Source: Armatimonadetes bacterium 55-13 (GTDB taxonomy: Bacteria; Armatimonadota; Fimbriimonadia; Fimbriimonadales; Fimbriimonadaceae). Taken from it: a stretch of DNA of 64,000 bases. The stretch covers positions 249,344-313,343 of the forward strand of contig MKRX01000001.1 in NCBI GenBank assembly GCA_001898035.1, given 5' to 3'. The position numbers and the translations under genes are program-made. Positions 41,417 through 58,351 of the stretch are shown piece after piece. How positions within the stretch are numbered: position 1 is the stretch's first letter; each line of letters opens with the position of its first letter. The notes beneath the pieces were generated by a model. The model saw only the letters and a program-made list of their open reading frames with translations, was not told where the DNA came from and ran no database searches.

Positions 41417-41440
41417 CCGAACCTCCTTCGCGCGTTTCAT

Positions 41441-42550
41441 TTACGACAGCTTCTTGAGCTTGGCGCTCAGTGTCGCCTTCTGGTCGGCAGACATTTCTTC
41501 CACCGCTAATCCTTGTTTCAGAATCTCCTGAGCGGCGACCTTATCACCCTTTGAGGCATACAGGTCCGCTAATCGAACATACGGAACGGCATAGGTCGGA
41601 TCGTTCCCAATCGCTGATTTATACTTCTCTTCGGCCTTGGCCTTCGAAGTCGCGTAGAGCGCGTCTCCTTCTTGCCGAAGATCGACCGCCGCCACGTGCA
41701 TCTCTTCCGGAGAGAAGTCTCGTCCTCCGAACGACTCGGATTTCTCGGGATCGAGCGAAGATCGAATTTTTAGGATCAACTGTTTGGCAAGTTGAGAAGG
41801 AGTCAGCCCCCATTCTTTGGCAAATGCGGTATCGGCCGTAATCACGAAATTGGAACCGCCCGTCCCGACGACGTATTGTCCTTTGACTTGCGAAACCTTC
41901 AACATCGCCCACCAAAGCCGATTCGACTTCGAAAGTGCTTGCATGCGGTCGGCCACCACTTTGGCGCGCCGCTGAACGTCCAGTTTCGAGGTCCCTGAAA
42001 GGACTTCGACCACTGTCTTGGACCGTCCACCAATCGAAAGCATGACCGCGCCAATCGGCTTGCCACCAGGAGCCGTCCGAGACACCGCGCTAAACGTAGC
42101 CTTGGCGTGAATACCCGGGATCTTATGCTTGACCGTCACCTTAGGAGGTGTCGGCGGCTTCACGGGAGGCTTATTGCCGCTCGTTTTCTTGGGCGGAGTC
42201 GGAGCTGGTTTTGCGGGCGCGCCAAGCAAGGACTCGAACTTGCGCATTTTGTCCATCGATCCACCTCGTCCGCCTAAGTCGTCGTCGGAAGGCATGGTGT
42301 CCAAAAACGCCACCGCGATCTCTTCCTCGCTCGCCCGAAGCGAGTCCGGCTCGTTGAAATAGCGACGCAAAATAGCTTCCAAAGCCGGCACGTCTTTCTT
42401 CACCGTCGGGTCCATGGACGGCTGAACTTTCTTCAGCCACGCTAACGCTTCCGACAACGTGTGCTGACCACCCTGAGCAAATCCTGCCGAGAGGCTGCCA
42501 CCCAAAACTAATACTGCTGCCGCAAACCGAATCCAACGAGCTCTCATCAT
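41441..42550 (-). CDS. Secreted TPR-like protein of unknown function
   Basis: A 369-residue exported protein (signal MMRARWIRFAAAVLVLGGSL, with AFA-like cleavage at GFAQG). The middle holds a Pro/Lys linker (about 110-145, PPKKTSGNKPPVKPPTPPKV). A central domain of unknown fold (about 150-290) follows. The C-terminal ~80 residues look like two TPR units (EEKYKSAIGNDPTYAVPYVR). Its stop touches the preceding frame of the caspase gene (no gap) and it lies 33 bases after the pseudo-caspase. It is probably an adaptor within the caspase set. I do not recognise the central domain. Confidence 0.7.
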   Translation of the reverse strand: MMRARWIRFAAAVLVLGGSLSAGFAQGGQHTLSEALAWLKKVQPSMDPTVKKDVPALEAILRRYFNEPDSLRASEEEIAVAFLDTMPSDDDLGGRGGSMDKMRKFESLLGAPAKPAPTPPKKTSGNKPPVKPPTPPKVTVKHKIPGIHAKATFSAVSRTAPGGKPIGAVMLSIGGRSKTVVEVLSGTSKLDVQRRAKVVADRMQALSKSNRLWWAMLKVSQVKGQYVVGTGGSNFVITADTAFAKEWGLTPSQLAKQLILKIRSSLDPEKSESFGGRDFSPEEMHVAAVDLRQEGDALYATSKAKAEEKYKSAIGNDPTYAVPYVRLADLYASKGDKVAAQEILKQGLAVEEMSADQKATLSAKLKKLS

Positions 42551-42583
42551 CTCAATCTACCGTCCATTGTAACGTCGTGTCTT

Positions 42584-44266
42584 TTATCGCACGCGAATAT
42601 TAATCGTCTTTGCCGTCCAGGGAAGTTGATTCTTCTCAAGCGCCTCCACTACCGTTCGAAGTTGCCGAATGAGGGAAGCCCGAAACTTGACCGGATCCTT
42701 CATGTCGACATCCGGAATCCTAGGACCACCTTTCGTCGGAACCACGATTGCCCGAAGCATCAGTCGGCCCGTAGAAGTATCGTTCTCAATGCGTCCCCCC
42801 ATTTGAAGGGAACCGTTCAGTTTCTGGGCGAACGGAGCTCCTGGCTGAGGGAACGCAAATTGGAGAACCCCGTCCGCATCGTCCCGATTCAAGACAAAGA
42901 GCATCGCCTCTTCTGGACTCGTCAGACCAAGGATAAAATCATCGCCTCGGGAAACCGCAATCTTGTCCGATTGCATCCGGAACTCGTTCTTCCAAGTCGG
43001 CTGCTCCGTGGCTGTGATTCGATACAACCGCATCACCAGCGCCCGAAGGTCAAGAAACGCCCCCAAACCCGCATCCAACGTCTTGCCAAGATCCTTGCCC
43101 GAAAAGGTCTGCACACGTTCCTTATCGAGATCGTCACCTTTAACCGAGGCATCGAAACCTTTCTCGGTTTTCTTCAGATGAACGATCACATCGGGGGGCG
43201 CCCCCGTCGGCGCGAATTCGGCGTTGGGAATCTTCGATTTTAAATAAGCCGTCATGTCCGCTGCCGCCTTGTCGTAAAGCGCCGGATCTTCAACCTCGAC
43301 CGCCACTCGCAATCGCTTTTCCCGCTCGACCCGCAACCGCTCCATCGCCGCAATCGCAACTTTGCTATCCGCCGGAAGCGCCGCCAAATCCAAGCCTCCG
43401 AAAACAGGTTGCCCGTATCCTGACTGGTCGTTGAGTAACGCCTCCATGTCAGGTTGAGGAGCCAGTCCCGGCATGTAATCGGCCCGAACTTTGTCCTTAA
43501 AGTAAGCCTGCACCTCTCGCATCGCGTCCACGTAGGAGGGATTCTCGCCGCGGTTCAATCCTGCGACCACGCTGTTGACCAACTGATCGGTAAACGCGCC
43601 CGACCACCGGCCCTGGGCGGAGTTTTGAAGCCACTCATAGGCCGCGCCCCTGGAGGGAGCCGCACTCAAGAAGATTCCCGGGCCGTCATAAATCTTGTCC
43701 CGAACCTCACCCGCCGCTGTCGAGGGCCGCTGAAATGATCGGGGGATGGGATGGTACTGTCGCCCAAACTCGGCTCGCGTTAGACTCTGGAAGCTGCAGT
43801 CCAAAATGATGGTGACGTGAACTCCGCGAATGTCCAGTTGCTTCGCCCAATCTTCAATCCGTCGCATGCGAATGTCGGGATCAAGCGCCGTCGCGCTGGC
43901 ATCGAACGGGGCGAGCACCGGTTCAAAGTCGGTCTTGTTGTTGGGCGCCTCGACGTTCGGCTGAATCGTTCCCCGACCGCTGAAATAGAACACGGCTTCG
44001 TCGCCTGATTTCGCAGCTTTGCTCAGCAAACTCATCTCTTCCACGATTCGTTTGCGGGTCGCATCGCTACGGAGCAAGACGGTTGACTTGAATCCGTACA
44101 GGTCCAACATCCGCTTCATCAGGTTGGTGTCCGTTTCCGCGCCTTGTAGCTGCCGCGTCGGCTCCGTGATAAAGCTGTACTTGTCCACCCCCACCAGAAC
44201 CGCGAACCGATCTGCTGACGCCGCAGAACTCAAAGCCAGGGCCAAGAGCAGTCCGTACCGTCTCAT
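42584..44266 (-). CDS. Caspase-like protein with substituted catalytic His (probable pseudo-protease), DUF4384-like C-terminus
   Basis: A 560-residue exported protein (signal MRRYGLLLALALSSAASA). The N-terminal ~290 residues align with the caspase fold of its neighbours: ADRFAVLVGVDKYSF, then VFYFSGRGT where the dyad His is Arg98 (codon CGG), and IILDCSFQS with Cys157 retained. His to Arg needs at least one base change, and the reading frame is intact, so this is not decay by frameshift. The C-terminal half includes a DUF4384-like stretch (VSRGDDFILGLTSPEEAMLF). It may bind substrates or regulate the active paralogues. It starts with an ATGA overlap on the NlpC/P60 gene. Confidence 0.82.
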   Translation of the reverse strand: MRRYGLLLALALSSAASADRFAVLVGVDKYSFITEPTRQLQGAETDTNLMKRMLDLYGFKSTVLLRSDATRKRIVEEMSLLSKAAKSGDEAVFYFSGRGTIQPNVEAPNNKTDFEPVLAPFDASATALDPDIRMRRIEDWAKQLDIRGVHVTIILDCSFQSLTRAEFGRQYHPIPRSFQRPSTAAGEVRDKIYDGPGIFLSAAPSRGAAYEWLQNSAQGRWSGAFTDQLVNSVVAGLNRGENPSYVDAMREVQAYFKDKVRADYMPGLAPQPDMEALLNDQSGYGQPVFGGLDLAALPADSKVAIAAMERLRVEREKRLRVAVEVEDPALYDKAAADMTAYLKSKIPNAEFAPTGAPPDVIVHLKKTEKGFDASVKGDDLDKERVQTFSGKDLGKTLDAGLGAFLDLRALVMRLYRITATEQPTWKNEFRMQSDKIAVSRGDDFILGLTSPEEAMLFVLNRDDADGVLQFAFPQPGAPFAQKLNGSLQMGGRIENDTSTGRLMLRAIVVPTKGGPRIPDVDMKDPVKFRASLIRQLRTVVEALEKNQLPWTAKTINIRVR

Positions 44267-46323
44267 TTGCCACTCCGGACGCTAAAGCGATAGATGTTCC
44301 AATAATAGCGACTCGTCAAACTTCCCACCGTCACCCCACGACTGGAAGACGCGTGAGCAAAAGCAAAGGGAATCTCCCCAAACTTCTGCCGCCACTTGGC
44401 GGGCACCCTTCCCAAGTAGATCCCGGTGTGTCGAGAACCTGAAGCGTCGGTGTTGCCCCGCTGGAAGATGATTCGATCACCCGGTCTAAGCTTCTTGATA
44501 TCGGTCGTGCCCAACTTGTACTTCACCGGGTTCGGTAGCACAATCGTCTGTCCCGAACGCCGCGCCGTTCCCGGCTTACAGTGAACCAAGTCACCAATCG
44601 TCTCCTGGATCACCACCGGCGGAGAAGGGCTCTTCCAACCAATTCGGCTGAAAATTTGAGCCACATAGTGAGAGCAGTCGATTCCCTGCGTCAGACTGTT
44701 TCCGCCCCACAAGTAAGGCGTGCCCACGTATTTCAAAGCCTCGCGAGCCACGATATCGTCGTTCGCATCGGGGCCGTCCGCAATCGTGACATCGCGCAAT
44801 CGCAAGCCTGACCCCGGCACAAAGCCCATCAAGGCGTCAAATCGAACTCGGTACGAGTCCGTAGCTTCAACCTTGCCCAAAACTTCAATAAAGCGGTTCT
44901 TCGGAATCCGACCGAGGATCGGCGAATCCGGCCGAGACGTTTCGTGAACGTCCACCTCGTCCAGAGTTACCGCCGTTCCCGAGAGGGAAGTGTTTTCTTG
45001 ATCGGCAGGCTTAACATCCGGCGCCGTCGTCTGCTTACCATCCTTCGAGGCAATGATATTGAGAAGGTCGCCAGGCATCGGATCGCCCCCCGGTGGGACT
45101 ACTACGTTGGTCGCATAGATATCGTCAGGCGAGACGCTCCATGCATCCGCTAACGCCTTCGTCGTGTCGCCAACTTGAACCTCGTAGAGCCCTTTGAACT
45201 CATAGCGTGACTTCTGGTTCTGCGCGATCATCTCCTCGCTCATTCCCACCATCACACATAGCTTAGTGCCCGGAGCCACGTTGGCCCCCTGTCGCAAGCC
45301 ATTGAGAACCCTAACGATAGAGGGGGAGTTCCTATTCCTTTCGGAGAACGACGCCACGTCCTCGCCTGGGTTCACGGGCCGGTTTTCAAAGACCACCGGC
45401 ATGTCGTTTACCCGCTGTCGAATCCCAACGATAGACCACTCGTCGTCTTTCAACTCGCCCGCATTGATCGCCTTGACCGGGTCGCGATCTCCTAGATTCT
45501 TTGTCGTGACCACCGCTACAAACGACACCGTCTTCCCAACCGAGCTTCCGTAGTTGTAAGTCTCAAACCGCAGCGGCTGTTGACCCGTCGCCTGCCGAGC
45601 CTTTGGCGTGTCTCCCGGTGTAATGACCTCAATCGGATCGCCTAACGCATTCACGCCCACAATGGGATCGATCTTTCCGTCGCTTAACCGGTACGCCTGG
45701 GCATAACTCGTCTTCGCCGGTCGAACCCACCCCAAAATCGTTCGAGCAGGGGGTGAGATTCCGAACTCGGGAAGATTCTCCAAGTTCTGTAGCACCCGAT
45801 CGCCGACCCTGTTCGCGGAGATACCCACCTGCCTGCACCAGTACTCTGGCGTCAGCATAGACATCTTCGCCCCGTTGATATCAAACGACACGCCAAGTGC
45901 TGAACAAAGCAGTTCCGCATCGATGAACGAGGTCGGAACGCCTCCCTTGGGCGTGATCTCGTATGGGTAGCTTTCTATGTCGAGCAGTTTGGTTGACCTC
46001 GGCGGTCCCTCTTTACCGAAGACCTCCACCTGCTTGCCCACCTTCGTGGAAATGGGAATGCGAACCCGGACCTGGTCGTGAATCAAGATATCGAACGAAG
46101 TCCCAGGCAGCACCCGCAGCTTGCCCTCGCCTTTCGTCAGCACCCTCACCGTCTCCCGCAGGGGAACCAGATAGGTGTTTAGCTCCAGCATCACCGGCTT
46201 CAATTCCACCGTCTCGCCGTCCAGGTCCACCACCAAGTTCGGCAACGGCTGCTGTGCGATTGCCCCGGCCGTAAGGCCAAGCAACGCTACCAGCCCGAGA
46301 AATCTATTTCTTTTCCGCGTCAT
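44263..46323 (-). CDS. NlpC/P60 peptidoglycan hydrolase with N-terminal copper-amine-oxidase-like, LysM-like and SH3-like domains
   Basis: A 686-residue exported protein. ATG at 46323 is preferred (GAGGTG seven bases before; another ATG two codons earlier). After the signal (LGLVALLGLTAGAIAQ) comes a Cu-amine-oxidase-N-like domain (about 30-155). LysM-like repeats follow, clearest at YEVQVGDTTKALADAWSVSP, then an SH3-like domain (about 450-515). The C-terminal NlpC/P60 domain has Cys in QGIDCSHYVAQIF, His in SGSRHTGIYLG and a third His in AFAHASS. Such enzymes cut peptide bonds in the cell wall. Its place between caspase-like genes suggests wall opening as part of the same programme. Confidence 0.88.
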   Translation of the reverse strand: MTRKRNRFLGLVALLGLTAGAIAQQPLPNLVVDLDGETVELKPVMLELNTYLVPLRETVRVLTKGEGKLRVLPGTSFDILIHDQVRVRIPISTKVGKQVEVFGKEGPPRSTKLLDIESYPYEITPKGGVPTSFIDAELLCSALGVSFDINGAKMSMLTPEYWCRQVGISANRVGDRVLQNLENLPEFGISPPARTILGWVRPAKTSYAQAYRLSDGKIDPIVGVNALGDPIEVITPGDTPKARQATGQQPLRFETYNYGSSVGKTVSFVAVVTTKNLGDRDPVKAINAGELKDDEWSIVGIRQRVNDMPVVFENRPVNPGEDVASFSERNRNSPSIVRVLNGLRQGANVAPGTKLCVMVGMSEEMIAQNQKSRYEFKGLYEVQVGDTTKALADAWSVSPDDIYATNVVVPPGGDPMPGDLLNIIASKDGKQTTAPDVKPADQENTSLSGTAVTLDEVDVHETSRPDSPILGRIPKNRFIEVLGKVEATDSYRVRFDALMGFVPGSGLRLRDVTIADGPDANDDIVAREALKYVGTPYLWGGNSLTQGIDCSHYVAQIFSRIGWKSPSPPVVIQETIGDLVHCKPGTARRSGQTIVLPNPVKYKLGTTDIKKLRPGDRIIFQRGNTDASGSRHTGIYLGRVPAKWRQKFGEIPFAFAHASSSRGVTVGSLTSRYYWNIYRFSVRSGK

Positions 46324-47986
46324 CGGCATTCACCTCGTTCGGGAAGAGTTGAGCGAGAATCGAGCGGTTGAGCGCAATCAGCGCATCGCCACTCGGTGGC
46401 TTCTTCACCTTGCCCATCACGTCCTTGCTGAGCTTGACTCCCTTGAAAGCGGGCTCGTCGTAAAGCAAACCGGCTTGCATCGCCAGGTTCAGCAACGTCA
46501 TAAACGTCTCTCGGTCGGAGAGTTCGGGCTTCTGCGTAGGATCGAAACTGACCACCCAGTTGTCGCCCTTCGGATATCCGGTGCAAGCCAGACGCAGCTT
46601 GGAGGCCAAGAACTTGGAGATCTCATCTTCTTGCTTCATCACCTTGACGAGCAAGCCGTCCAAGTCCTTCAGTCGAAGCCCGCCTACCAGCGAGTCGCCA
46701 ACCGCAATCGATAGCCGCGAGGTAAATGCCGGCTCGCTCACCGCTCTCGCCAGCACCAAATCTCTTGCTTTCCCTTGCGATTCCATGAGAGCGTCCATCA
46801 CCCCCGCCGCTTCTTCCGCCGTCGAGAACAGCATCGCCTTCAGGTGGTCCGCTCCGAACGAGTCAAAGAACAAGCGATCACGGCCGGTAGGGAAGTTGAT
46901 CGTGCCTTTGGAAACCTTGGCGTCCTCAGCTTTCTCGCTGGCGGGGAAGAACTGATAGATTCGATCACCGACTTGTCCCAAGATCACCAAGTAACCGTCC
47001 TGTCCAACCTTGACTTCCAGACCGATCTCCTTGCCCACATCCTGCACATCCCGATCCGGTTTGATCTTCAAACCAATCTTTCCCGGATTAGGATTGTCCG
47101 CATTCCAGATGTCCAACAGCGTTTTGCCCGGAGGTGGCTTAGGAGCGCCCTTCAGGATGTTGTCCATCGCCGGAGTCGGCATGTAAGCCGTGGAGATCAT
47201 GGGATTCTGCTGTCGACCGGAATTCTCCAACCGCTTGGTCATCTGCTTCTTGATGTCGTTGTGAACTTCGCTCCACAGCTTCCCATTGCGAAGGTTCTTG
47301 ATGAGCCCGTAGGTGAAAAGGCCATGTCGCTTCCCATCGTCCATCGTCGCTTCTAACGCCTGCTCGCTGTCCAGGGAAGCCGCGTAGTAGCAAATGCCCG
47401 GCGCCGTCTCCAGCTTTTCGGGGGTGTCCTTATTGCTCGCCGAGGTCTTGACTGGACCAAACGTAACGCTTCGAGCCTGCTCGGGGTCGAAGTAGCGAGC
47501 CTTAAAGTCATCCAGTCCACGAGACATTTCACCCGCCGCCATACCACCGGAGAAGCAGGAGTCGAGCAAAACCGTCCTCGACCGTGCCTGAACCTTCAGG
47601 ATGGCGGCGTTCAATTCCTTCGGCTCGATGTCGTTCCCACTGATCGTGGCATCGCTTGGCATCAACGCAAACCGGGGGCTCCGCCGACCGTGACCGGCAA
47701 AGTAGAACACAAACCGTTCGTCTTTCTTCGTCTTTTCGGCAATCTGCGCAATCGAACCCAGGATCCCCTGTTTGGTCGCCTTTTCATTGAGAAGGAGCGT
47801 GACCACAAACCCCTGCTCCTTCAACACTTCCGCGACGCCGTTGGCGTCATTCATACAGCCCTTTAAGGTGCTGGCCGCCACCAAAGGCGAATACTCCTGA
47901 ATCCCAACCACCAGGGCTTGGTCTGCTCGCGCTGCTGGCAAAACTGCCAGGATGCCGAGCGTCAGGACGGTTCGTATTCGCATCAT
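46304..47986 (-). CDS. Secreted caspase-like protease (peptidase C14) with DUF4384-like C-terminus
   Basis: A 560-residue exported protein with signal MMRIRTVLTLGILAVLPAARA. The caspase domain runs to ~270 with intact His99 (FVFYFAGHGRRS) and Cys144 (VLLDSCFSGG). The C-terminal half holds a DUF4384-like beta domain (EVKVGQDGYLVILGQVGDRI, then YQFFP), common in bacterial caspase-like and TIR-type surface proteins. Its 3' end overlaps the NlpC/P60 start by 20 bases. It is the first caspase-like gene after the two membrane proteins, 51 bases downstream. The signal peptide implies action outside the cytoplasm. Confidence 0.88.
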   Translation of the reverse strand: MMRIRTVLTLGILAVLPAARADQALVVGIQEYSPLVAASTLKGCMNDANGVAEVLKEQGFVVTLLLNEKATKQGILGSIAQIAEKTKKDERFVFYFAGHGRRSPRFALMPSDATISGNDIEPKELNAAILKVQARSRTVLLDSCFSGGMAAGEMSRGLDDFKARYFDPEQARSVTFGPVKTSASNKDTPEKLETAPGICYYAASLDSEQALEATMDDGKRHGLFTYGLIKNLRNGKLWSEVHNDIKKQMTKRLENSGRQQNPMISTAYMPTPAMDNILKGAPKPPPGKTLLDIWNADNPNPGKIGLKIKPDRDVQDVGKEIGLEVKVGQDGYLVILGQVGDRIYQFFPASEKAEDAKVSKGTINFPTGRDRLFFDSFGADHLKAMLFSTAEEAAGVMDALMESQGKARDLVLARAVSEPAFTSRLSIAVGDSLVGGLRLKDLDGLLVKVMKQEDEISKFLASKLRLACTGYPKGDNWVVSFDPTQKPELSDRETFMTLLNLAMQAGLLYDEPAFKGVKLSKDVMGKVKKPPSGDALIALNRSILAQLFPNEVNADDAEKK

Positions 47987-48037: not shown

Positions 48038-50305
48038 TTAGCCGCCCACTTGTTTCAGCATTCGATTGATCGCGGTGCGTTCTGCCGCCGTCGGGCCCTT
48101 CTTCAGGGCATCCTGTAGAATCACTTTCGCTTCGAACTTGCTGTTTTGCGACATCTTGAATCGGGCGATGACAATGTCCTTGAACACAAAGCCAGGGGCA
48201 ACCTTGTCCACCTCGCCGTCCGCTTGGGCGTAGCCCGCCACCGCATTCGCCGGATTCGCGTTCTCAATTGCCTTGGAGAACGCCAGCATACAGAGCGCCA
48301 CATCGTTCCCCGAATCTCGATCGCCCATCGCCTGCGTCGCCTTGTTGATCGCCGTCCGGGCTTCATCAACCCGGTTCAGAGCCGCCAACGCGTAGGCGCG
48401 AACGGCAAGCGAGCCAGGATCCTTCGCCGAGCGTGTGTTGTTAGCTGCTTTCACGTAGTCGGCTCGATTATCAGACAACAGCAACTGGTAGGAGGACGTC
48501 GGAAGGGCTCCCGTCGAGCCCGTGGGCCGCGTACCTCCACCCGAGGTCGAACCACTCGTTCCAGACCCGCCACCAGTTGCTCCCGTGGTCCCACCAGAGC
48601 CGCCGCCGGAAGTCCCTCCACTGCCGCCACTCGTCGAGCCCGTGGTGTCAGGGATCGAGCCCGTTGAACCATCCGTCGTCTCGTCCGGCGGCATGGATAC
48701 GTCTTTGACCATGCAAATGTTCGGATTCAAAGTGACCACCTGGTTATCGGCCGAGTACGCCGCCACCGAGAACGAATCGCCCGGCACGATCGTGTTCGGG
48801 ACCTTGACCTGAACCGTCTCGTCCGCCCAGCTAACGACCTTCGCTGGCTTCCCATTGATCAAAACCCGGCCCTGTTGGTCGCCAAAGTTCTGCCCGCCAA
48901 TTGTCAGCGTGCCGTTCATATCGACCGAGGCGGGAATCGTTCCCGAAGGCGCTCCCTTGGGTTTATCGGGAGCCTTTCCAATCTGAACTGAGGTTGGATC
49001 TTTCGTGACTGGCAAGAAGCGTCCAAGAATGGTGAGTGTTCCCAACCGCTGGGCGCCCACGATGACCTTCTTGCCATCCAAATCCTTGTCCGTAATCGTC
49101 GCCACCACGTACTCCAACGTTCCGTGCGATTCAACTTTCGGAGTGATCGGCTCGCCAAGCTGTTGCTTGGTTACCGGATCGAACAAAAGGATCTGAGCTC
49201 CAATCAGGTTCTTTCCCCGAATACGGAAGGGTTCGCCAATCTTAACGCTCGAACGTGTCACGCGTACTTCCATGATGTTTTTGAAGTACAGCTCGTAAGC
49301 GTAAACCGCCACCTGGAATGCCACAAAGGCGCCCACAATCGCAAAGAAAAACCCCTTGGCATTGCGAACGATTGCTTCGATAAACGCCGTAAACGTGTCC
49401 GGGATCGGCGGGCAGTAGACCAGCTTCGCCGGAGTCTCTGGCACGCCCGTTTCATTGGTATCGTTAGCTGTCACCGCTGCGCCAAGATTGGCGCTCGAAG
49501 GTCCATAGGTCGCTTCTTCCGGCAACGGCGGCACCGTGGGTGCATCCAGTCGCTGAATCTGAAGTGGCAAAGGCGTCGGGGTGTGCGATCCCCGAATCAT
49601 CTTTAACCGGCTGATCGCCCGAATCGGCACCGTTCGGACCGAATCGCCGCCCGGTTCGGGCGGCGGAATCGCAATCCTCGACACCGGAGTGTCCACCAAG
49701 ACGTTCTGCGGTCGCGGCAGTTTCAGATCGCAGTAAAGCCAGTCGTTCCCCTGGTTATCGATCGCCAACTCGTACGAAGAACCACGTCGCAAGATGCCCA
49801 CGCGTCGAATCTCTGGCGAGAAATTGACCTGCCACTTATAGAACGGTCGGACGATGATCGAAACCGGAATCTCGGTGATGCGTTCTTGACGCGCCAACTG
49901 GGGATCGTCGCTGACGATGCGAGTCTCGACAATCACTTTCGCCCGATAAACCCCTGCCCGGCACTCCGATTTCTCCGGCACAAAGAAGCTCAACAACACA
50001 TCGCGAGCCCCTCCATCCTTGATGAAGACGGTCAGCGATTGATTGCGAGGTCCGGCTTGATCGGGCTTGCCCGAAGGCGGCGCATTCTCAGGACCACCTG
50101 CCGGTGGAAGCGCCGCCACCGTGTACCAGGCATCCTGCCAGTAGGCGTCTTCGCACTTCAGCTTGATCGTATAAGAGTTCTGCCGTGGGGTCGTATTGAT
50201 CAGCCGAAGGGTCGCCACGCCCGTGCCCACAAACCCCTCGGGGAGGGGCTGCTTCTGCGGTTTTCGACCTGGGACGACATCGACTTCGCTTTGAAGTAAC
50301 TTCAT
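48038..50305 (-). CDS. Single-pass membrane protein with IPT/TIG-like domains, Gly/Ser/Thr linker and TPR-like tail
   Basis: A 755-residue protein. Residues ~1-300 are beta-rich with immunoglobulin-like elements and no signal peptide. One TM lies at about 319-338 (FFFAIVGAFVAFQVAVYAYE). It is followed by two IPT/TIG-like units (SSVKIGEPFRIRGKNLIGAQ; GTLTIGGQNFGDQQGRVLIN). A low-complexity Gly/Ser/Thr segment lies at about 550-612 and a helical TPR-like tail follows. By topology the N-domain is probably cytoplasmic and the IPT part periplasmic, or the reverse. It starts with an ATGA overlap on the 812-residue gene. I know no named family for the whole; a structural anchor for the CIS is an inference. 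Confidence 0.7.
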   Translation of the reverse strand: MKLLQSEVDVVPGRKPQKQPLPEGFVGTGVATLRLINTTPRQNSYTIKLKCEDAYWQDAWYTVAALPPAGGPENAPPSGKPDQAGPRNQSLTVFIKDGGARDVLLSFFVPEKSECRAGVYRAKVIVETRIVSDDPQLARQERITEIPVSIIVRPFYKWQVNFSPEIRRVGILRRGSSYELAIDNQGNDWLYCDLKLPRPQNVLVDTPVSRIAIPPPEPGGDSVRTVPIRAISRLKMIRGSHTPTPLPLQIQRLDAPTVPPLPEEATYGPSSANLGAAVTANDTNETGVPETPAKLVYCPPIPDTFTAFIEAIVRNAKGFFFAIVGAFVAFQVAVYAYELYFKNIMEVRVTRSSVKIGEPFRIRGKNLIGAQILLFDPVTKQQLGEPITPKVESHGTLEYVVATITDKDLDGKKVIVGAQRLGTLTILGRFLPVTKDPTSVQIGKAPDKPKGAPSGTIPASVDMNGTLTIGGQNFGDQQGRVLINGKPAKVVSWADETVQVKVPNTIVPGDSFSVAAYSADNQVVTLNPNICMVKDVSMPPDETTDGSTGSIPDTTGSTSGGSGGTSGGGSGGTTGATGGGSGTSGSTSGGGTRPTGSTGALPTSSYQLLLSDNRADYVKAANNTRSAKDPGSLAVRAYALAALNRVDEARTAINKATQAMGDRDSGNDVALCMLAFSKAIENANPANAVAGYAQADGEVDKVAPGFVFKDIVIARFKMSQNSKFEAKVILQDALKKGPTAAERTAINRMLKQVGG

Positions 50306-52740
50306 TCGCCCGCCACCTTCAACTTAATTCTAAGGAGCTGCATCTTCCCATCCGTGGTCAGGAGTTCCCATGTCGATTCACCATCGGTCGGCAGGTTCTC
50401 GGCATCCGTTACCGAAATCTTCGCGGTAACCGCCGCGTTCGGGTTGATCACCTGGTTGTCCCCTTGCTTCACCAAAAAGTCGGTGATCTTAAATCCTTGC
50501 GGAGTGCGAATTGTCCAAGCCACGATGGTCTGGCCATTCACCCGACCTGCTCCCGTCAAATTCCTAAAGGTCAACGGCACAATTCCAGACCTGGGAACGA
50601 TGATCGTGACGTCTCGAACGGTGATCGGTACCTTGTCCTCTCCTATTGCCTCCTTGCTATCGCTCCCCTGCAGAACCGCGTTCGGCCCACTCAATAACAG
50701 ATCAAGCATCCCGTTAGTTCGGATTGGTACAAACCGGACATCCGTCTTGAGCCCGCCTCCGAAAAACTTCGAGGCTAATTCATAGGTCACCTTTTGGGCT
50801 TGGGCGTAATCCACGATCTGCGCGCTATCGTTCGCCGCGTGTCCTTCCATCTTCATCGGCTCTGCGCGCTGGCCCTCGAACTTGCTCAGTTTCAACATTG
50901 CATAGCTCGGCGCACTCCATTTCAAATGAACGTCGAGTTTGGACTGATTAGGCTCGGAGCCCACGACATAGAATGCACCGCCATCGCCTTGAATCGCGTT
51001 CGTGACTCTCAGGCTGTCCCCGTTGCTGCCCAGCAGAACCAGGGCGATCAGGAAGAGCGGAATCATGATGAACATCGGAAGCGGGAAAACTCTCCAACGC
51101 GATCCGGTTAGCGTAACGGAGTTTCCGGTCTTGGCTCCGTTTCCCGCATCCGTTACCGGCATCGCCGTAACCTTGACCGTGTGTTTCTCCCGCCAACCCA
51201 GCCACCAAGTGCCCTTTCGCTGAAGTGTGAACTTGTGCGGCACCGGAACTGGCGGCCTTCCCGCGCTCGGAGAAACCAAGTTCTCGACTTCCTTATCGAA
51301 AAGATAAGTCCAATGCGGGGTTTCGTACATTGGCGCGGGTTCCTGAGGCGATCCATCCGCCGCTGGCGACTCGTCCATAACCGCAATTCGATAGGCGGTA
51401 TCTGCATTGCCTCCGCTTTCCACTTCCAACTCAAAGGGAATTGCTTTGGAGAGAGGTCCGACTTTCGCGCTGTTCTTCTTCGCCGTCAAGGCGACGGCAG
51501 GCGCCGCTTGTACGGTCAGGGTCAAGAAGCAATTGCTGAGCGGCTTACCAAGAATCCCAAAGGAAACCGCGAACGGGTAACTCGCCGGTTCCGCATGGAT
51601 CGGTGGCTTCAGCAAAAATGCCACATCGCCGGAGCCTCCAGGGGTGATATTCACCTGATCGCGAACCAAACTGATCCACTCGGAAGGCAGCGAGCGGTCT
51701 TCTTGTAACACATAGGTGCGGACCCCCGACTGGTCGTTGTTGACGCCAAACCTAACCAGAATCGTCTCACCCGGGCGGGCATAGAGCGTTGTCCCTTCTT
51801 TCGGATTGCTCACGACATGGTCGGCGGGGTAGGCCGCCGCCACGTCCTCGATCTCTTCAGGCTCCTCCTCCGGAATCCCAAAGTCCACCACCTTGGGAGT
51901 TGGCGGTTCAACCGGCTTGGGTGGCTCCGGAATTGGAACGGGTATGGGTTCGGGTTCAGGCGTTGGTTCGGGTTCCGGATCCGGTTCTGGCTCAGGAATT
52001 GGATCAGGCTCCGGCGGCGTTAGATCGATGATCTTCGGACCTGCTGGAGGAGGAGTCTGAACCTTGGGTTCTTCGGGCGTCCGCGGCGGTTCGGAAACGA
52101 CGGGCATGGTCGCAACCTCAATCTCCTTAACGGGTTCCGCCTCGACCGCCTGTTCTTCAAGCGAAACTTCTTCGAGAACAGGTGCTTCCACCGCCACGGG
52201 AGTCTCCACCGGAATAACCGGCGCAACCTCCTCTTTGACTTTCTTAGGGCGTTCTTTCTTCGGCTTAACCGGCGGCTCTTCCGGTGGCGTTTCTTTCTTG
52301 GGTGGTTGGCTAGCTTTCTCTGGCTTCGATTCCGGTTCGGGCTTGGCTCCAATGACGGGCTCTGGCGCCGGCGGCGTCGGAGGCTCGGGCGTCTTGGCTG
52401 CGGCCAACAGGCGCATCACCAGTTGGATAACTCCATTCGGCTCAACTGGATCGCCATTTAGAAAGAGCTTAACGGTAAACGGATAGTCGCCCGCTTCTGC
52501 CCCCTCGGTACTCTGTACCGGCACTAAAATCGAACTTGACTCGAACGGGACCACCGGCAGCTTGGGTTCCTTCTGAGGTCCCCAAGGTCCGAGCCCGTCC
52601 ACCTCTGCCGTAAACGTAACCACCTTGTCGGCGGAGTTCTGGCAGGTGAACAAGAGTTCCAGCGGCTCCCCCGCGGGAACCGTAATGACCGAACCCGGTG
52701 CCGGGTCTTGCCAAGTTTTTTGATACGAGACGTTTGCCAA
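50302..52740 (-). CDS. Single-pass membrane protein with long Pro/Glu linker and Ig-like beta domains
   Basis: An 812-residue protein without signal peptide. The N-domain (about 1-115) is a beta-sandwich-like unit (TVPAGEPLELLFTCQNSADK). Residues ~116-300 are almost only Pro, Glu, Lys and Val, with a PEPDPEPEPTPEPEP run. A second beta domain (~310-415) repeats the pattern of the first (YARPGETILVRFGVNNDQSG), and a third follows. One TM is at about 551-571 (VFPLPMFIMIPLFLIALVLL), then ~240 residues of beta-rich C-domain. It lies directly after the DUF4159 baseplate-associated gene and is coupled to the 755-residue membrane protein. It could tether the tail to the envelope with an extended linker. 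No family recognised. Confidence 0.7.
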   Translation of the reverse strand: MANVSYQKTWQDPAPGSVITVPAGEPLELLFTCQNSADKVVTFTAEVDGLGPWGPQKEPKLPVVPFESSSILVPVQSTEGAEAGDYPFTVKLFLNGDPVEPNGVIQLVMRLLAAAKTPEPPTPPAPEPVIGAKPEPESKPEKASQPPKKETPPEEPPVKPKKERPKKVKEEVAPVIPVETPVAVEAPVLEEVSLEEQAVEAEPVKEIEVATMPVVSEPPRTPEEPKVQTPPPAGPKIIDLTPPEPDPIPEPEPDPEPEPTPEPEPIPVPIPEPPKPVEPPTPKVVDFGIPEEEPEEIEDVAAAYPADHVVSNPKEGTTLYARPGETILVRFGVNNDQSGVRTYVLQEDRSLPSEWISLVRDQVNITPGGSGDVAFLLKPPIHAEPASYPFAVSFGILGKPLSNCFLTLTVQAAPAVALTAKKNSAKVGPLSKAIPFELEVESGGNADTAYRIAVMDESPAADGSPQEPAPMYETPHWTYLFDKEVENLVSPSAGRPPVPVPHKFTLQRKGTWWLGWREKHTVKVTAMPVTDAGNGAKTGNSVTLTGSRWRVFPLPMFIMIPLFLIALVLLGSNGDSLRVTNAIQGDGGAFYVVGSEPNQSKLDVHLKWSAPSYAMLKLSKFEGQRAEPMKMEGHAANDSAQIVDYAQAQKVTYELASKFFGGGLKTDVRFVPIRTNGMLDLLLSGPNAVLQGSDSKEAIGEDKVPITVRDVTIIVPRSGIVPLTFRNLTGAGRVNGQTIVAWTIRTPQGFKITDFLVKQGDNQVINPNAAVTAKISVTDAENLPTDGESTWELLTTDGKMQLLRIKLKVAGE

Positions 52741-52743
52741 ACC

Positions 52744-53910
52744 TTAAACTTTTGTTAGCTCGGCCCGACGCTTCCTCCGCGCCGCGAACGCTGTCACGTT
52801 CAAACCGAACTCGACCGCCCTCCTAATGCGATCTCGACTACCTTCGTCGTCTGGCTTTGGAACATTGCCTTGCCAGGCTCCGCCGTAGTCGTGTGTGCTG
52901 AGAAGAATCCCTTTCTCTAAATCTCCCGTCAATGTTCCCTTATCGGCTCCTCCCGGAGGTGCCGAAGCAAACAAATGGTGCGCTCGCAGAACCGGCGAAT
53001 CTTTGGCGATTGGCTTCATCGTCGCGCCAACTCCCTTCGCAATTTCCGCAAACGACTTCACAAATCCATCGCTCCCTTTGCTGGCTTCCGCAAACAGCGT
53101 CCCCCCATTCTCAAGGTATCTGCGCAGACCATCAAGTTGATCCTTGTTGATCGCCTGAAAATCCCCTTCGCAGGAGACATACAGCAAGAGAGGATCGGTT
53201 GCCTCACCGGCTGCCCGCAGGTTAAACAAGCCATCGAAGAACAAGTGGAACCCCAGGCCGTTCGCCTCGCGGATCATGTTGTAAAGCCCCGCGCGGTTTG
53301 GCTTCCAAGCCCCCGGATCGGCCGTTGGCAAGAAGCAAAGCTCACCCACCCCGCCGTCGGCATAGCAATGGGGGAACGCAAGCACTCGGTAAAGCTGATT
53401 AAGCTCATCCTCCGCCGGATCGAACGGATTCTTCGCATCCTTGATCGGCTTGTCCTTGCCAGAACGGTCGACTCGCGCCAATTCCAAATGCGGCGTCTTG
53501 GGCAACTCTTTGGTCGCCACGACCTGACGGCCTTCCACCAGCCGGAAATACTTCTTACCGCCGCCCACCGTCACCGCCGAGCGGCTGTCGTAGTTGTCTT
53601 CGTAGGCAATGGTGATGTAGGTCTGTCCCTTTTCCTCCAAAACGAAGGAGGCAGGCTCCGATAAGAGTAGGGTGCGCCCCTCTTGGTCGATGCCCACGCC
53701 CGGAGCCACCACCAAGGTGCGCTCCTGCTTTGGCGAAACGAACACCTCCAGCCCATAAACGATGCCCGGACGGTGAGAGCCTGCCGCATGCAGGAACCGG
53801 TGGGTCGTGTGCTGAGCGTGCGCCTCCCGCCACACATCCGCGTCGATCGGAAGCTCGTTAAACGGCTCAATTCCCGATATCCGTCGTGCAATCAGTTCTT
53901 CGATTGGCAT
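52744..53910 (-). CDS. CIS-associated protein with baseplate/tail-fibre-like N-domain and DUF4159-like C-domain
   Basis: A 388-residue protein. The N-half has HAQHTTHRFLHAAGSHRPGI, VYGLEVF and VVAPGVGIDQEGRTLLL, a pattern I associate with tail-fibre-like proteins in eCIS loci. The C-half, from PLLLYVSCEGDFQAINKDQL through LRRYLENGGTLFAEASKGSD, matches DUF4159, a flavodoxin/GATase-like fold. The gene is one base after the tail protein I-like gene. Function within the particle is unknown; the beta-rich N-part suggests a surface or baseplate role. Confidence 0.72.
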   Translation of the reverse strand: MPIEELIARRISGIEPFNELPIDADVWREAHAQHTTHRFLHAAGSHRPGIVYGLEVFVSPKQERTLVVAPGVGIDQEGRTLLLSEPASFVLEEKGQTYITIAYEDNYDSRSAVTVGGGKKYFRLVEGRQVVATKELPKTPHLELARVDRSGKDKPIKDAKNPFDPAEDELNQLYRVLAFPHCYADGGVGELCFLPTADPGAWKPNRAGLYNMIREANGLGFHLFFDGLFNLRAAGEATDPLLLYVSCEGDFQAINKDQLDGLRRYLENGGTLFAEASKGSDGFVKSFAEIAKGVGATMKPIAKDSPVLRAHHLFASAPPGGADKGTLTGDLEKGILLSTHDYGGAWQGNVPKPDDEGSRDRIRRAVEFGLNVTAFAARRKRRAELTKV

Positions 53911-53911
53911 G

Positions 53912-54988
53912 TTACGCGCTGGTTCTCCTCAAAATGCGAAGGGAATACGCCGTATGCGCCGGCTTCTCCCAAGTAATAATGTCGTGCACCACTTGCTCGT
54001 TGATCTTTGAAGGATCTGTCAGAGCGATGCTGACCACAAAGGTATGCGCGGGCACGTCGCCCAGCTTCGTTTCGGGCGCGCCCATCTTCGTCTCCGGTCC
54101 CAAGCGCATGCCCCGAACCGGAAGATCGTTGATTTCAGGCTTCACGCCGGTGTAAATCTCCAAGTATCGAGAAAGCCCACGATGAGTCCCCCGCCATCGA
54201 TACAATTCGACGGCTTCTCGGATCAAGTGCCGCCGCTGCATTTCCGACCAGTTTTCGTCAAGCGGAATGCAGACCCAAGCCCCTAGCCAAATTAGAAACT
54301 CCGAAGGAGCCGAAAATGGCCCAAACAGCGAATCCATCCGATCCAAGGTCCGCTGCAAGGGACGCAAACTGTCTTCAAATCCCAGCAGGAATCGCTCAAA
54401 GAAGGGCGTGTCTCCATTCTCTTCTTCCCGAAGCTTGTCCATCTCTTCGAGATAGACCGAAGGAAGCATATTCAGCAGGCGACTTTGCGGGTGGGTTAAC
54501 GTGAGAAATCCCGGTCGTCGGATCTCACCACCTTCCTGATCTCGAACCACGACGTCGAAACCGTACGTCCCTGGTACAACTCCGTCATCCAACTTGGCCC
54601 TCAGTTCCAAGCTGAACATGCGAGTCTCACCCGCCAAGATCATCGCCGTCAGCGTCTGCCCATCGCCGCTGACTTCGTCCTGAGCATCCAAAGCGTCGCC
54701 ACCCTGAAGTTCACGGGCCTTTCTTTGTAAGTAGGTCCATCCCGCCCAAGACTTCCGCCAAGCCCCATGATCCGGCTCGATGGTCAAGGTCACCTTGACC
54801 GCCCGATCTGCCGGAGCGGTGACCGTAACCATGGCCGATCGTTTCGGCTCCGCCTTGTGCCACAGCGCCTCGTACCGATCAAGCGCTAGTTCCGGATTCT
54901 GCGGAATAAGTTCAAGCGTGACGAAGTCGGGTCGAAGGTCGACATCCAACCCCGCGATCTCCTTAGCCGCTTGAATCGCCTGCGCCAC
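53912..54988 (-). CDS. Phage tail protein I-like baseplate subunit (Afp12-like)
   Basis: A 358-residue protein, GTG start at 54988 directly adjoining the stop of the J gene. The N-part is beta-rich. From ~170 on, SRLLNMLPSVYLEEMDKLRE, FFERFLLGFEDSLRPLQRTL, WLGAWVCIPLDENWSEMQRR and YRWRGTHRGLSRYLEIYTGV match the TIGR02242-type tail domain of P2 gpI-like/Afp12 baseplate proteins. Together with J it builds the wedge of the tail baseplate. The order J then gpI-like is the usual one in CIS clusters. Confidence 0.85.
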   Translation of the reverse strand: MAQAIQAAKEIAGLDVDLRPDFVTLELIPQNPELALDRYEALWHKAEPKRSAMVTVTAPADRAVKVTLTIEPDHGAWRKSWAGWTYLQRKARELQGGDALDAQDEVSGDGQTLTAMILAGETRMFSLELRAKLDDGVVPGTYGFDVVVRDQEGGEIRRPGFLTLTHPQSRLLNMLPSVYLEEMDKLREEENGDTPFFERFLLGFEDSLRPLQRTLDRMDSLFGPFSAPSEFLIWLGAWVCIPLDENWSEMQRRHLIREAVELYRWRGTHRGLSRYLEIYTGVKPEINDLPVRGMRLGPETKMGAPETKLGDVPAHTFVVSIALTDPSKINEQVVHDIITWEKPAHTAYSLRILRRTSA

Positions 54989-57151
54989 CTAGACCCCGCT
55001 CCCGTTTAACGGGGTGTACTCGTCATTGCCCACCGAAGTGATCGGAACTACCCGAATCGTATGTTGACGGGTGCAGAACAACTCGCCTTCACCCAACCGC
55101 ACGCCTTGCTCGTTCGATGCCTGCTCCTCGGGGCCAAGAAGGCCTTCGTCCCGGTTCACCAACCGAGAGACAAAGATCTTAGCGTCGAGCAGGAAAGCCA
55201 CACCTCGGACGGAGCCAATCTGGGCATAGATATCGGCCAAGGTCAAGGAACGACGGAACGGCCACCCTTCGCCCGCCGGGCCTCCGTAGAGAGGGTGAAG
55301 GAAGTAGTTCAAACGCTCCCGCACCCGGGCCGAGACCTCTTCTGCATTCGCTCGTGGGTCCGCCACCAACCGAATGTCAAGCGACACAAAAACGTACTCC
55401 GGCTCGGCCACTTCTACAATGGTTGTCAAGAGTCGGTGCTGATCGAGGTAAGCCAAAACTTCTTCGATGGTCTTCTCGCTCACCTGAAGATGTTCGGGAC
55501 GTGGGACCTCGATATTGCGGCCCAACGCCGGAACGATCAGCATCCGCACCGTGCCCGGATTCGGTAAATTCTGACGACTGTCGGCCGGATGTTGGAGTGG
55601 CTGAATACATCTCGCCCGCCCCACGCTGCCCGATGCTTTCTGGGCCAAGAACTCGAAATCGTCTGAAGTCACCGCCCGATTTCGGATCTTCAGGATCTCT
55701 TTGGCCCGCATGATCGCGTGATCCAGTGTCTCTTGGTCGCGTCCTCCAATCGCCGGGCGAGGATTCGAAACGCCTGAAATGTACGGATAGGAACCTTTGA
55801 GCACCGTCACCTTGTTCTCCCGAACGTTCCCATGGACGCCTCCGCCCGTTCGGTAGGAGGACATTCCCACGATCAAACCCTGCTCGGGGATCGCCCCATA
55901 CTGAGTCGTTGTTCCATCCGGGTTGCGCAACACTGGACCGAACGCGATTGCCCCGGTCAACTCGTCGTAAGTAAAATGCCGGTCCCCCGCCGCACTCTCC
56001 GAAAAGTCTTGGACCCGCTTCCAGGGAATCCAACCATCCATGTCGTCGGGCGCATCCCCCAGAGCGCCTACCAAAACGGTATCCGCTTCTCTCAAGGCAA
56101 GCGTCGGCGGATACTTGACAGTGAATGTCTGCCCCGGAATCCCATCGCTAATTCCCAACGGCTCGTTCCGAACAACGGAGCACTGCGTTGAAGAGACGGT
56201 TCCTCCCACCGTTCGCGCCGCCAAATAGGTAACTTCCGGCGGTTTCTGATAAGGGTCCGGCCCTTTCTGTTCCGGTCCACGCGGAGGAAGGTCGGCGGCC
56301 AAAGTCGTATACCGAACGCGAAGCCAATAGGCCTTGACGCCCGCAACCTGCGAATCCACCATCCCATCCGGCATCGCCAACTCCACGTATCCGGTACGGT
56401 TGAAACCATAGGTTCGATCCTCGGTGACTTCCAAAGGACGCCAACTTGCCGATGCTCCGTGCCAAATCTCCCAAATCTGCGCAGGATAGCTCTCGTTCAA
56501 TCCCGTCGCGGCCGCCGTGAGACACTCGGCATATATCTGGACGACGTTGCCCGACACATCGTTTTCAAAACCCAGATAAAAGCAGTCGCCCTGCCCGGGA
56601 GTGGCGCTGAAGACGGGAAAAGCGATGTTAGATTCGCTCGGCTCTGAGGGTAAATCGAACGTACGGGCATCCGCCGCTTCACGTTCTCCGGTCCCTGCTT
56701 CGCGGCGGGGCAACGCAAACGCATGGCGCAGCTTGGGTCTGACCATCCGCAAGTCCCGATCTGTCACAAATTCGATCGCATCTTCCGTCTCTGTGCGAAC
56801 GGTGGCCGCCGCCGTCTGACCGCCCTTCAGTTGGACTTCGTTCTCTTCCGCACCTTCTTCGTCCTCAATCCATCGAGAAAGTCGGAATCGCAGGTCGGTG
56901 GTTGCCGCTTCTGCGGGCTCGAGCCTGACGCCCAACATGTCCAAAAACCGGATGTGATTCTTCTCCGGCACCTGGTTCATGCGGAAAAGCATCGTTTCCG
57001 TCAAATAGGCGAACAACTCAAGGAGAGTGATTCCGGGATCGGAAACGTTATGGTCCGTCCACTCCGGGCATCGCAGCCCGATCATCCGCTTGGTATCGTC
57101 TACCAGTGACTGAAAGCTGCGGTCGTCCAGATTCGGCGAGGGAAGTGGCAC
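54989..57151 (-). CDS. Baseplate assembly protein J-like (Afp11-like)
   Basis: A 720-residue protein. The start MPLPSPNLDDRSFQSLVDDT and WTDHNVSDPGITLLELFAYL, with TETMLFRMNQVPEKNHIRFL, are the signature of the putative baseplate assembly family TIGR02243. The C-terminal part contains AVTSDDFEFLAQKASGSVGR and RLNYFLHPLYGGPAGEGWPF, as in baseplate J. It forms the wedge that joins the hub with outer baseplate parts. Length and domain order match Afp11-type proteins. Three bases separate it from gp25. Confidence 0.9.
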   Translation of the reverse strand: MPLPSPNLDDRSFQSLVDDTKRMIGLRCPEWTDHNVSDPGITLLELFAYLTETMLFRMNQVPEKNHIRFLDMLGVRLEPAEAATTDLRFRLSRWIEDEEGAEENEVQLKGGQTAAATVRTETEDAIEFVTDRDLRMVRPKLRHAFALPRREAGTGEREAADARTFDLPSEPSESNIAFPVFSATPGQGDCFYLGFENDVSGNVVQIYAECLTAAATGLNESYPAQIWEIWHGASASWRPLEVTEDRTYGFNRTGYVELAMPDGMVDSQVAGVKAYWLRVRYTTLAADLPPRGPEQKGPDPYQKPPEVTYLAARTVGGTVSSTQCSVVRNEPLGISDGIPGQTFTVKYPPTLALREADTVLVGALGDAPDDMDGWIPWKRVQDFSESAAGDRHFTYDELTGAIAFGPVLRNPDGTTTQYGAIPEQGLIVGMSSYRTGGGVHGNVRENKVTVLKGSYPYISGVSNPRPAIGGRDQETLDHAIMRAKEILKIRNRAVTSDDFEFLAQKASGSVGRARCIQPLQHPADSRQNLPNPGTVRMLIVPALGRNIEVPRPEHLQVSEKTIEEVLAYLDQHRLLTTIVEVAEPEYVFVSLDIRLVADPRANAEEVSARVRERLNYFLHPLYGGPAGEGWPFRRSLTLADIYAQIGSVRGVAFLLDAKIFVSRLVNRDEGLLGPEEQASNEQGVRLGEGELFCTRQHTIRVVPITSVGNDEYTPLNGSGV

Positions 57152-57154
57152 GTC

Positions 57155-57562
57155 TTACTCTTCCCCCGGAATCGTGTAGAAGGGAAACACAAGGTTCCGT
57201 TGAGAATTCGTCGCGATGATCTGATATCGAATGTCCAACACTAAGGCGCTCTCCCCACGTGGATTCGGCAGCGTCTTCACGTCCAACACGTCGATCCGAG
57301 GCTCCCACATTGAGAGCGCTTCGATCACATACCGGCGAGCCAAGCCGCTCGTCGCCGGATCGTTGGGTGCGAAGACAAGACTGTGAATCTCACAACCAAA
57401 TTCCGGTCGCATGGGCCGTTCACCTTTGCGGGTCATCAGGATGAGCCGAATCGCTTCTTCCACGTCCTGCTCCTCATGAACGAGCTCAATGCGTCCCCGA
57501 TTATCGAGCCGGGGCGGAAACTTCCACCCCGAGCCCAAAAAATTCTTCGTTGAATCCCTCAT
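57155..57562 (-). CDS. GPW/gp25-family baseplate wedge protein (Afp9-like)
   Basis: A 135-residue protein. ELVHEEQDVEEAIRLILMTR, KGERPMRPEFGCEIHSLVFA and RRYVIEALSMWEPRIDVLDV match the gp25 lysozyme-like fold family of phage T4, P2 gpW, T6SS TssE and Afp9. It initiates sheath assembly at the baseplate. The presence of a gp25 protein implies that a contractile sheath is encoded nearby, although none is in the window. Confidence 0.92.
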   Translation of the reverse strand: MRDSTKNFLGSGWKFPPRLDNRGRIELVHEEQDVEEAIRLILMTRKGERPMRPEFGCEIHSLVFAPNDPATSGLARRYVIEALSMWEPRIDVLDVKTLPNPRGESALVLDIRYQIIATNSQRNLVFPFYTIPGEE

Positions 57563-57608: not shown

Positions 57609-58094
57609 TTAACCACCGATTATCACGCTCATACAACCTGCGGCGATTGTATTGACGGATGTAACCTCCTGAATCGTATCTCCCATACGGCAAGCGGGCT
57701 TGCTATTGAACTGCACGGTGGCGCTGGGAGTCGTGTCGATTCCTGGGCCGTCTGGGATCAAGACCTTGACAATGGCGCACATATGAATACTTGCTCCCGT
57801 ACTTCCAAAGGCGTTCGCCACGTTCGCGACCGATGACGCTGCCGTGGCCACCAAATTGGCGTCCGCCGCCCCTGATGCCGGAGTTCCTTTTGCCGCTGCG
57901 GAAGCTGCCGACGCTTGCGCAATATCTGACGCAGCCGCTGAAACCGCCGCCTGGATCGCCGCAAGTGCCGCCGCCGGACACCCAAGCCAAGCGGGCTGTC
58001 CGCCGATGATCACCGTCGGGCTGGGAGGCCCCGGCGCCAGTGGGTTTCCGTGCGCCGTCGGATCGCCCATTCGGGCCGCCGGTCCGGTCGGCAT
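57609..58094 (-). CDS. PAAR-like spike-tip protein with an Ala-rich helical insertion
   Basis: A 161-residue protein. It starts PTGPAARMGDPTAHGNPLAP and has VIIGGQPAWLG, and ends CRMGDTIQEVTSVNTIAAGC then MSVIIGG, which are PAAR-type metal-binding repeats. Between these, residues ~42-100 are an alanine-rich stretch (AALAAIQAAVSAAASDIAQA and on) predicted helical and absent from ordinary PAAR tips. PAAR proteins sharpen the VgrG spike and can carry effectors. The start overlaps the previous stop by one base (TAATG). Confidence 0.85.
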   Translation of the reverse strand: MPTGPAARMGDPTAHGNPLAPGPPSPTVIIGGQPAWLGCPAAALAAIQAAVSAAASDIAQASAASAAAKGTPASGAADANLVATAASSVANVANAFGSTGASIHMCAIVKVLIPDGPGIDTTPSATVQFNSKPACRMGDTIQEVTSVNTIAAGCMSVIIGG

Positions 58095-58351
58095 TAGTTA
58101 ATCCTCACCATCTTGCCCTGAATGATCGTCTCTTCCGGGCTCTTCATTTCAATGCCCTCCTTTCCGGCCAACCGAAGGACTCCCCCTGCTTCTAAAGAGA
58201 TGTCTCCCCCAGAAGTAATCCGAATCTGGTCGTTCGCCAAATCGATCACGATGCAAGACCCTCCGGTCTGCCGCTCCACCACCAACAGATCCTGCTCTGC
58301 ATCGTAAGAAACCAAATTTCCTCCTCTTGTCTGAAAACTTTGAATGCTCAT
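58094..58351 (-). CDS. Small beta-repeat protein resembling the VgrG/gp5 spike tail
   Basis: An 85-residue protein. Its short alternating hydrophobic repeats (GGDISLEAGGVLRLAGKEGI, then EMKSPEETIIQGKMVRIN) resemble the C-terminal beta-prism of VgrG/gp5. The VgrG gene directly upstream ends in similar repeats, and the two genes overlap as ATGA. It may extend the spike as a separate subunit between VgrG and PAAR. No named family is known to me for the isolated unit. Confidence 0.72.
   Translation of the reverse strand: MSIQSFQTRGGNLVSYDAEQDLLVVERQTGGSCIVIDLANDQIRITSGGDISLEAGGVLRLAGKEGIEMKSPEETIIQGKMVRIN

Follow-up and report, generated by a model that had tools for sequence, protein, structure and literature searches.

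Two adjacent genes that follow the baseplate genes of a CIS cluster in Armatimonadetes bacterium 55-13 encode large single-pass membrane proteins, and we consider it probable, though far from certain, that they form a CIS-specific two-protein membrane adaptor of the CisA kind, which would dock a cytoplasmic CIS. Both genes are located on the minus strand of the window (the whole stretch of 64,000 nucleotides that was analysed; G000:C1:249344-313343 of a 4.5 Mb genome that is 99% complete), at positions 50302-52740 (812 aa) and 48038-50305 (755 aa). Position, topology and co-evolution of the pair fit such a role. As to how CIS particles built in the cytoplasm reach the membrane and fire, CisA is the sole tested adaptor. 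If our reading is right, a whole phylum gains a named, testable adaptor pair, membrane proteins that are unrelated or rearranged occupy one and the same gene slot in several phyla, and the N-terminal extension of Cis12 is suggested as the docking surface.

The CIS itself is complete and encoded on the minus strand. It begins outside the window with the Pvc16-type cap, sheath, tape measure and a second tube gene (L028) and continues within it with the tube protein (63346-63819), an 823-aa protein, Cis7 (CIS_tube plus LysM, 60208-60858), the VgrG-like spike Cis8 (58348-60207), the PAAR tip (57609-58094), Cis9 (gp25, 57155-57562, E 1e-24), Cis11 (baseplate J, 54989-57151), Cis12 (gpI, Tail_P2_I, 53912-54988), a Cis13-like protein with a DUF4159 domain (52744-53910) and finally the pair. 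Comparison of Cis11 with solved structures identified chain 9gtp_1K as by far the closest (E 3.5e-114; next best E 2e-9), and the sheath is closest to 8bky_A, which is also found in 9gtp (E 4e-130). By sequence, baseplate J and sheath are thus closest to the cytoplasmic CIS type of Streptomyces. The argument of the original prediction that extracellular CIS need no membrane anchor, whereas thylakoid CIS (tCIS) and T6SS do, is not supported in this form, as it omits the cytoplasmic CIS of Streptomyces, the firing of which needs CisA (PMC12237407). The 823-aa protein (60874-63345) is rich in proline and has no family match; relatives encode a counterpart at the same position, of strongly varying length (about 600-1300 aa) and sequence. 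Next to the cap gene, divergent genes (L028:14492-18002) encode a metallo-beta-lactamase-like protein and a 704-aa protein that has an HExxH motif and weakly matches Peptidase_M13.

Cis12 carries an N-terminal extension (approximately 54533-54847) that matches the first Ig-like domain (Ig1) of the 755-aa protein (hhalign 96%) and Ig1 of a standalone protein family of the same phylum described below (95%). The neighbouring gene had been described as a DUF4159 baseplate gene. It does adjoin the pair, but its product is not a classical baseplate subunit: a Cis13-like N-terminus (NCBIfam CIS13 family, sub-threshold at E 3.4e-5) precedes a C-terminal DUF4159 half (E 9e-10), and no hydrophobic segment exceeds a KD value of 1.6. 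This protein may have a fibre-like role; no tail-fibre family was recognised among the scanned cluster proteins. Among the papers searched, none dealt with a CIS with DUF4159 or with eCIS in Armatimonadetes.

Past the pair, a caspase-like protein with a signal peptide (46304-47986, minus strand; Peptidase_C14, E 4e-21), an NlpC/P60-LysM-SH3 protein (44263-46329, minus strand), a second caspase-like protein (42584-44266, minus strand), a TPR protein and a caspase-PEGA-WD40 protein are encoded. Throughout the region 38804-47986, the three caspase-like, the NlpC/P60 and the TPR proteins have signal-peptide-like N-termini, and the order caspase-NlpC-caspase is retained in several Fimbriimonadaceae relatives.

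The two genes of the pair overlap by 4 nucleotides (ATGA), and an NTGA overlap of this length is kept in all seven close relatives, the window counted, which is consistent with the translational coupling originally predicted. The first gene starts with TTG 3 nt past the previous stop codon; this start position is uncertain. Each protein has one strong internal hydrophobic segment, at residues 551-569 (51034-51090; KD 2.64) in the 812-aa protein and 318-336 (49298-49354; KD 2.04) in the 755-aa protein, and both segments are retained in relatives. An internal segment above KD 2.0 was not observed in any other protein of the CIS cluster. A signal peptide, which the original prediction had named as evidence against itself, was looked for and is absent from both N-termini. 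Since the N-side flank of the transmembrane helix is richer in Lys/Arg than the C-side flank (2-4 versus 0-2) in 12 of 12 members of the 812-aa family, an N-in/C-out topology of this family is well supported by the positive-inside charges. For the 755-aa family the flanking charges favour neither orientation, which weakens the case for an adaptor. In one relative (G014), the 755-aa protein ends in a YARHG domain instead (E 1.7e-15). YARHG is an extracytoplasmic domain, and its presence tentatively favours a C-out orientation of the 755-aa protein as well.

The domains of both proteins were delineated with AF2 models based on seven-sequence alignments (mean pLDDT 68-70); because of the low pTM (0.36-0.37), single domains were used and not their arrangement. 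The 812-aa protein starts with an Ig-like domain (aa 8-113; 52402-52719; pLDDT ~87) that belongs to the family of the later Ig1 (hhalign 99%). A disordered linker (aa 117-302; 51835-52392; pLDDT mostly below 50) with 30% Pro and 21% Glu (residues about 113-300) separates it from Ig1 (aa 308-410; 51511-51819), which adopts a PapD-like/WxLIP fold (Z 10.9, rmsd 2.2, 101 residues aligned), and from Ig2 (aa 415-548; 51097-51498) with a conserved KGxWWxGWxE motif and a 93% hhalign match to Ig2 of non-CIS paralogues. Behind the membrane helix follows a beta-rich region (aa 576-809; 50314-51015; pLDDT ~85) that is predicted to be periplasmic. The Ig-like domains, the Pro/Glu linker of ~180 residues and the single membrane helix had all been anticipated for this protein. 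In the 755-aa protein, two Ig-like domains (aa 1-255; 49541-50305) precede the membrane helix and, according to alignments and the AF2 model, represent its best conserved part, aa 1-153 showing a PapD-like fold (Z 10.1, rmsd 2.4, 109 residues aligned). They are followed, beyond the helix, by a beta domain with a TIG domain (aa 346-530; 48716-49270; Pfam TIG E 1.5e-6), a linker of 38% Gly, 25% Thr and 20% Ser (aa 541-601; 48503-48685) and a helical, TPR-like tail (aa 603-754; 48044-48499). The layout first proposed for this protein was correct as to the single membrane helix and the linker; it missed both Ig-like domains, and of its several TIG units one is certain. The TPR match of the tail is sub-threshold in the window (E 0.08), but the model is all-helical and a relative has TPR at E 9e-9. 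Pfam, NCBIfam and PHROGs assigned no family to the 812-aa protein, and a PHROGs match of the 755-aa protein was discarded as falling within the Gly-rich linker. Searching the PDB by sequence with the pair retrieved low-complexity or TIG matches only. Foldseek and VIA-align on the single domains returned generic Ig-like repeats and PapD-like/WxLIP folds, with no functional lead.

To which extent the pair is tied to the CIS was analysed in 291 Armatimonadota genomes, the named relatives belonging to Fimbriimonadaceae, Chthonomonadales and others. Profiles of both proteins picked the same 13 genomes (E <1e-100), all of which are among the 21 that encode the cap domain Pvc16_N; co-occurrence of this extent has a hypergeometric probability of 1.5e-17, with four families represented and phylogeny not corrected. 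The pair was present in none of the 270 genomes lacking the CIS cap, although its discovery in CIS-less genomes had been named as a possible refutation. Weaker genome matches (E 1e-4 to 1e-8) were rejected as copies, the examples being the standalone proteins treated below. Wherever contigs permit reading, the order gp25-Cis11-Cis12-Cis13/DUF4159-pair is fixed. The distance matrices of Cis11, Cis12 and both pair proteins correlate at 0.91-0.97 in nine genomes, the pair proteins co-varying with the baseplate at r 0.95-0.97, a correlation that owes part to shared descent. These findings support that the pair belongs to the CIS.

Most Pvc16_N genomes without the pair appear to encode a CIS of another type, because their J is only distantly related (G130, G137, G018, G097, G208) or no J match was found (G144, G119, G079). 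Four loci of such other-type CIS could be read sufficiently far beyond J, and none of them shows a strong single-TM protein there. Other Armatimonadota (L172-L179) encode a distant second type of CIS, which has two J-like proteins and lacks a strong TM protein after them. In one genome with a window-type J (G039), the slot is filled by a single 422-aa Ig1-Ig2-TM protein. Another genome (G079) has a 755-like remnant (L169, G079:C56; L170) together with a broken Pvc16_N gene and no baseplate J, and probably represents a decayed CIS, not a counter-example.

Profile comparison joined the N-terminal modules of both pair proteins into one family, in which two Ig-like domains in fixed order stand just before a single membrane helix (Ig1-Ig2-TM). 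Domain by domain, the pair matched standalone non-CIS proteins of the phylum at 93-99%; the hhalign E-values derive from single comparisons with no database behind them, and among 60 control proteins three matched above 50%, all three from CIS loci. The standalone proteins (Ig1-Ig2-TM-Ig, NPCBM_assoc/FixG_C-type Ig, about 505-560 aa) have the same domain order as the pair but are encoded away from CIS genes and possess extra Ig-like domains past the membrane helix. They are widespread in Fimbriimonadia (L037-L042, dozens of genomes) beside varying genes, e.g. purH or dnaE. Since the family also exists outside CIS, the Ig module alone does not mean CIS docking, which counts against an adaptor, and the match between Cis12 and Ig1 could be explained by shared ancestry without contact.

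Besides G039, CIS clusters in other phyla also encode Ig1-Ig2-TM proteins. On three Deinococcus plasmids (L188:16088-21963, L193:16067-21903, L181:19794-25615) the slot holds a protein of ~1600 aa with Ser/Thr kinase, FHA, Ig1-Ig2 and TM (matches of 97.6-98.2%), and Deinococcus Cis12 starts with an FHA domain (E 4e-13 and 7e-12 in two of them). This arrangement suggests phosphorylation-dependent docking. In Pseudanabaena and Kovacikia, Cis12 and Cis13/DUF4159 are followed two genes on by an Ig-TM-WD40 protein (profile match of 96% in Pseudanabaena, a weak 52% in Kovacikia). Some cyanobacterial plasmid CIS, those of Brasilonema and Oscillatoria, show no such protein nearby, a further point against the adaptor, and a direct search for the 755-aa protein on plasmids found none. 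Several proteins encoded after the Brasilonema plasmid CIS (L184:16441-25880) have a common N-terminal portion with similarity to a stretch of the tape-measure protein of the window's CIS; these are probably effectors. Judged by domain content, Cis12 and the membrane protein share a domain class in two phyla, namely Ig in Armatimonadota and FHA in Deinococcus. We raise, tentatively and with somewhat less than even confidence, the idea that Ig1-Ig2-TM proteins are a docking family of Streptomyces-type CIS across Armatimonadota, Deinococcota and Cyanobacteriota that matches a swappable N-terminal domain of Cis12, the matched pair setting docking and firing. If this holds, docking and firing in Deinococcus are possibly under phosphorylation control.

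For the pair of the window, we propose that both proteins would cross the cytoplasmic membrane once, with their N-terminal Ig modules in the cytoplasm, where these would dock the free CIS particle via its baseplate. The most likely partners would be Cis12, with its own Ig1-like extension, and the Cis13-like/DUF4159 protein, and the Pro/Glu linker might serve as a flexible tether, extending the reach of the membrane protein to the particle. The C-terminal parts, which vary (TIG/TPR, YARHG or beta domains), would be periplasmic and may sense a signal or bind partners in the envelope; possible candidates for such partners are the secreted proteins of caspase-like and NlpC/P60 type encoded in the same run of genes. 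Docking would permit or trigger contraction of the sheath, directed at the membrane of the cell itself. The pair may also have some link to the caspases or a role in cell death. The original idea of an envelope anchor retains CIS membership, membrane proteins and an adaptor-like position, but had overlooked CisA. Permanent tethering would be one possibility, and an adaptor that acts transiently, like CisA, accounts for the findings no less well; what had been suggested as an envelope-tethered CIS with new anchors reduces to a two-protein version of the CisA type, the pair as such being new.

It is rather unlikely that the pair is instead a transmembrane sensor which anchors nothing, its periplasmic parts reading a signal and its Ig parts licensing firing or controlling the caspases. 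Conservation across the family is high on the cytoplasmic side (44-50% identity in the Ig domains before the membrane helix) and low on the periplasmic side (21-28% behind it, with a mean of 28% in the C-terminal region of the 812-aa protein). Such a pattern counts in favour of the adaptor, as it fits a constant machine inside and changing inputs outside; it speaks for a sensor too, as does the kinase-FHA protein in the Deinococcus slot, and CisA itself has been proposed as a sensor as well (PMC12237407). However, Pfam and NCBIfam scans of the Armatimonadota pair detected no enzymatic or signalling domain, and the fact that Cis12 carries Ig or FHA domains matching those of the membrane protein points to contact with the particle.

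Unlikely, too, is that both proteins are membrane-acting effectors, i.e. cargo of the CIS, for which Sco4256-4258 of Streptomyces provide a precedent: these single-TM proteins associate with the CIS and are toxic to E. coli (PMC10066040), so that an adaptor function does not follow from a membrane helix and a place in a CIS cluster. By their published description, they resemble the pair in the single membrane helix, a shared N-terminal module, variable C-termini and their location in a CIS cluster, but are shown effectors encoded outside the slot after the baseplate genes. Effectors usually turn over, whereas here both genes stay together in the same slot in 13 of 13 genomes and co-vary with the baseplate. 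Moreover, big Ig arrays and a disordered linker of 185 residues would make an improbable tube cargo.

We regard as very unlikely a T6SS-like or tCIS-like machine that is permanently anchored in the envelope and fires outward through it. Two bitopic proteins at a baseplate, a cluster in which no tail-fibre family was recognised, and, in parallel to tCIS (PMC8894136), an extended Cis12 encoded next to a Cis13-like protein would suit such a machine, but the Cis13-like protein has no transmembrane helix of the kind that anchors tCIS, Pfam matched no TssJ/TssL/TssM-type membrane complex among the scanned cluster proteins, and the closest solved particles lie free in the cytoplasm (PMC10066040). That the two are envelope proteins unconnected to the particle, which happen to be encoded in the CIS operon, is hardly credible: the Ig1-Ig2-TM family does occur outside CIS in the same phylum and the next genes do encode secreted peptidase-like proteins, but the pair is confined to CIS genomes, co-varies with the baseplate and occupies a slot that is used in other phyla as well.

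Among known systems, the proposed adaptor most resembles CisA (SCO4242) of S. coelicolor. This bitopic, N-in protein, encoded in the slot following Cis12, is required for contraction and is not found in the purified particle (PMC12237407); an earlier description gave it a TM segment and a sugar-binding domain (PMC10066040). Like CisA, the pair follows right after the baseplate genes, here with the Cis13-like/DUF4159 gene between; each protein has one membrane helix, and for the 812-aa protein the N-terminal side, which includes a long flexible stretch, is predicted to be cytoplasmic and the C-terminal domain extracytoplasmic. The surrounding clusters agree in their Streptomyces-type Cis11 and sheath and in having no recognised tail fibre. 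In contrast to the single protein CisA, the pair comprises two, which have folded Ig1-Ig2 domains before the membrane helix and different C-terminal domains. Three Streptomyces plasmid CIS encode a TM protein in or near the slot after Cis12, with a zinc ribbon, one hydrophobic segment and, in two of them, an F5/8-type C-terminal domain (Pfam). Between the pair and three Streptomyces slot proteins, CisA not among them, no sequence homology was detected, which speaks against the adaptor reading. The CIS of Roseiflexus lie free in the cytoplasm with no close CisA homologue (PMC12998442). In tCIS of Anabaena, the anchoring helix is located on Cis13 itself and the addition to Cis12 in its C-terminal part (PMC8894136). 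The cluster described here shares with tCIS an added Cis12 domain, an adjoining Cis13-family gene and, as proposed, an anchor that is not part of the core baseplate; it differs in that the Cis12 addition is N-terminal and that the Cis13-like protein ends in DUF4159, the membrane helices being carried by separate proteins.
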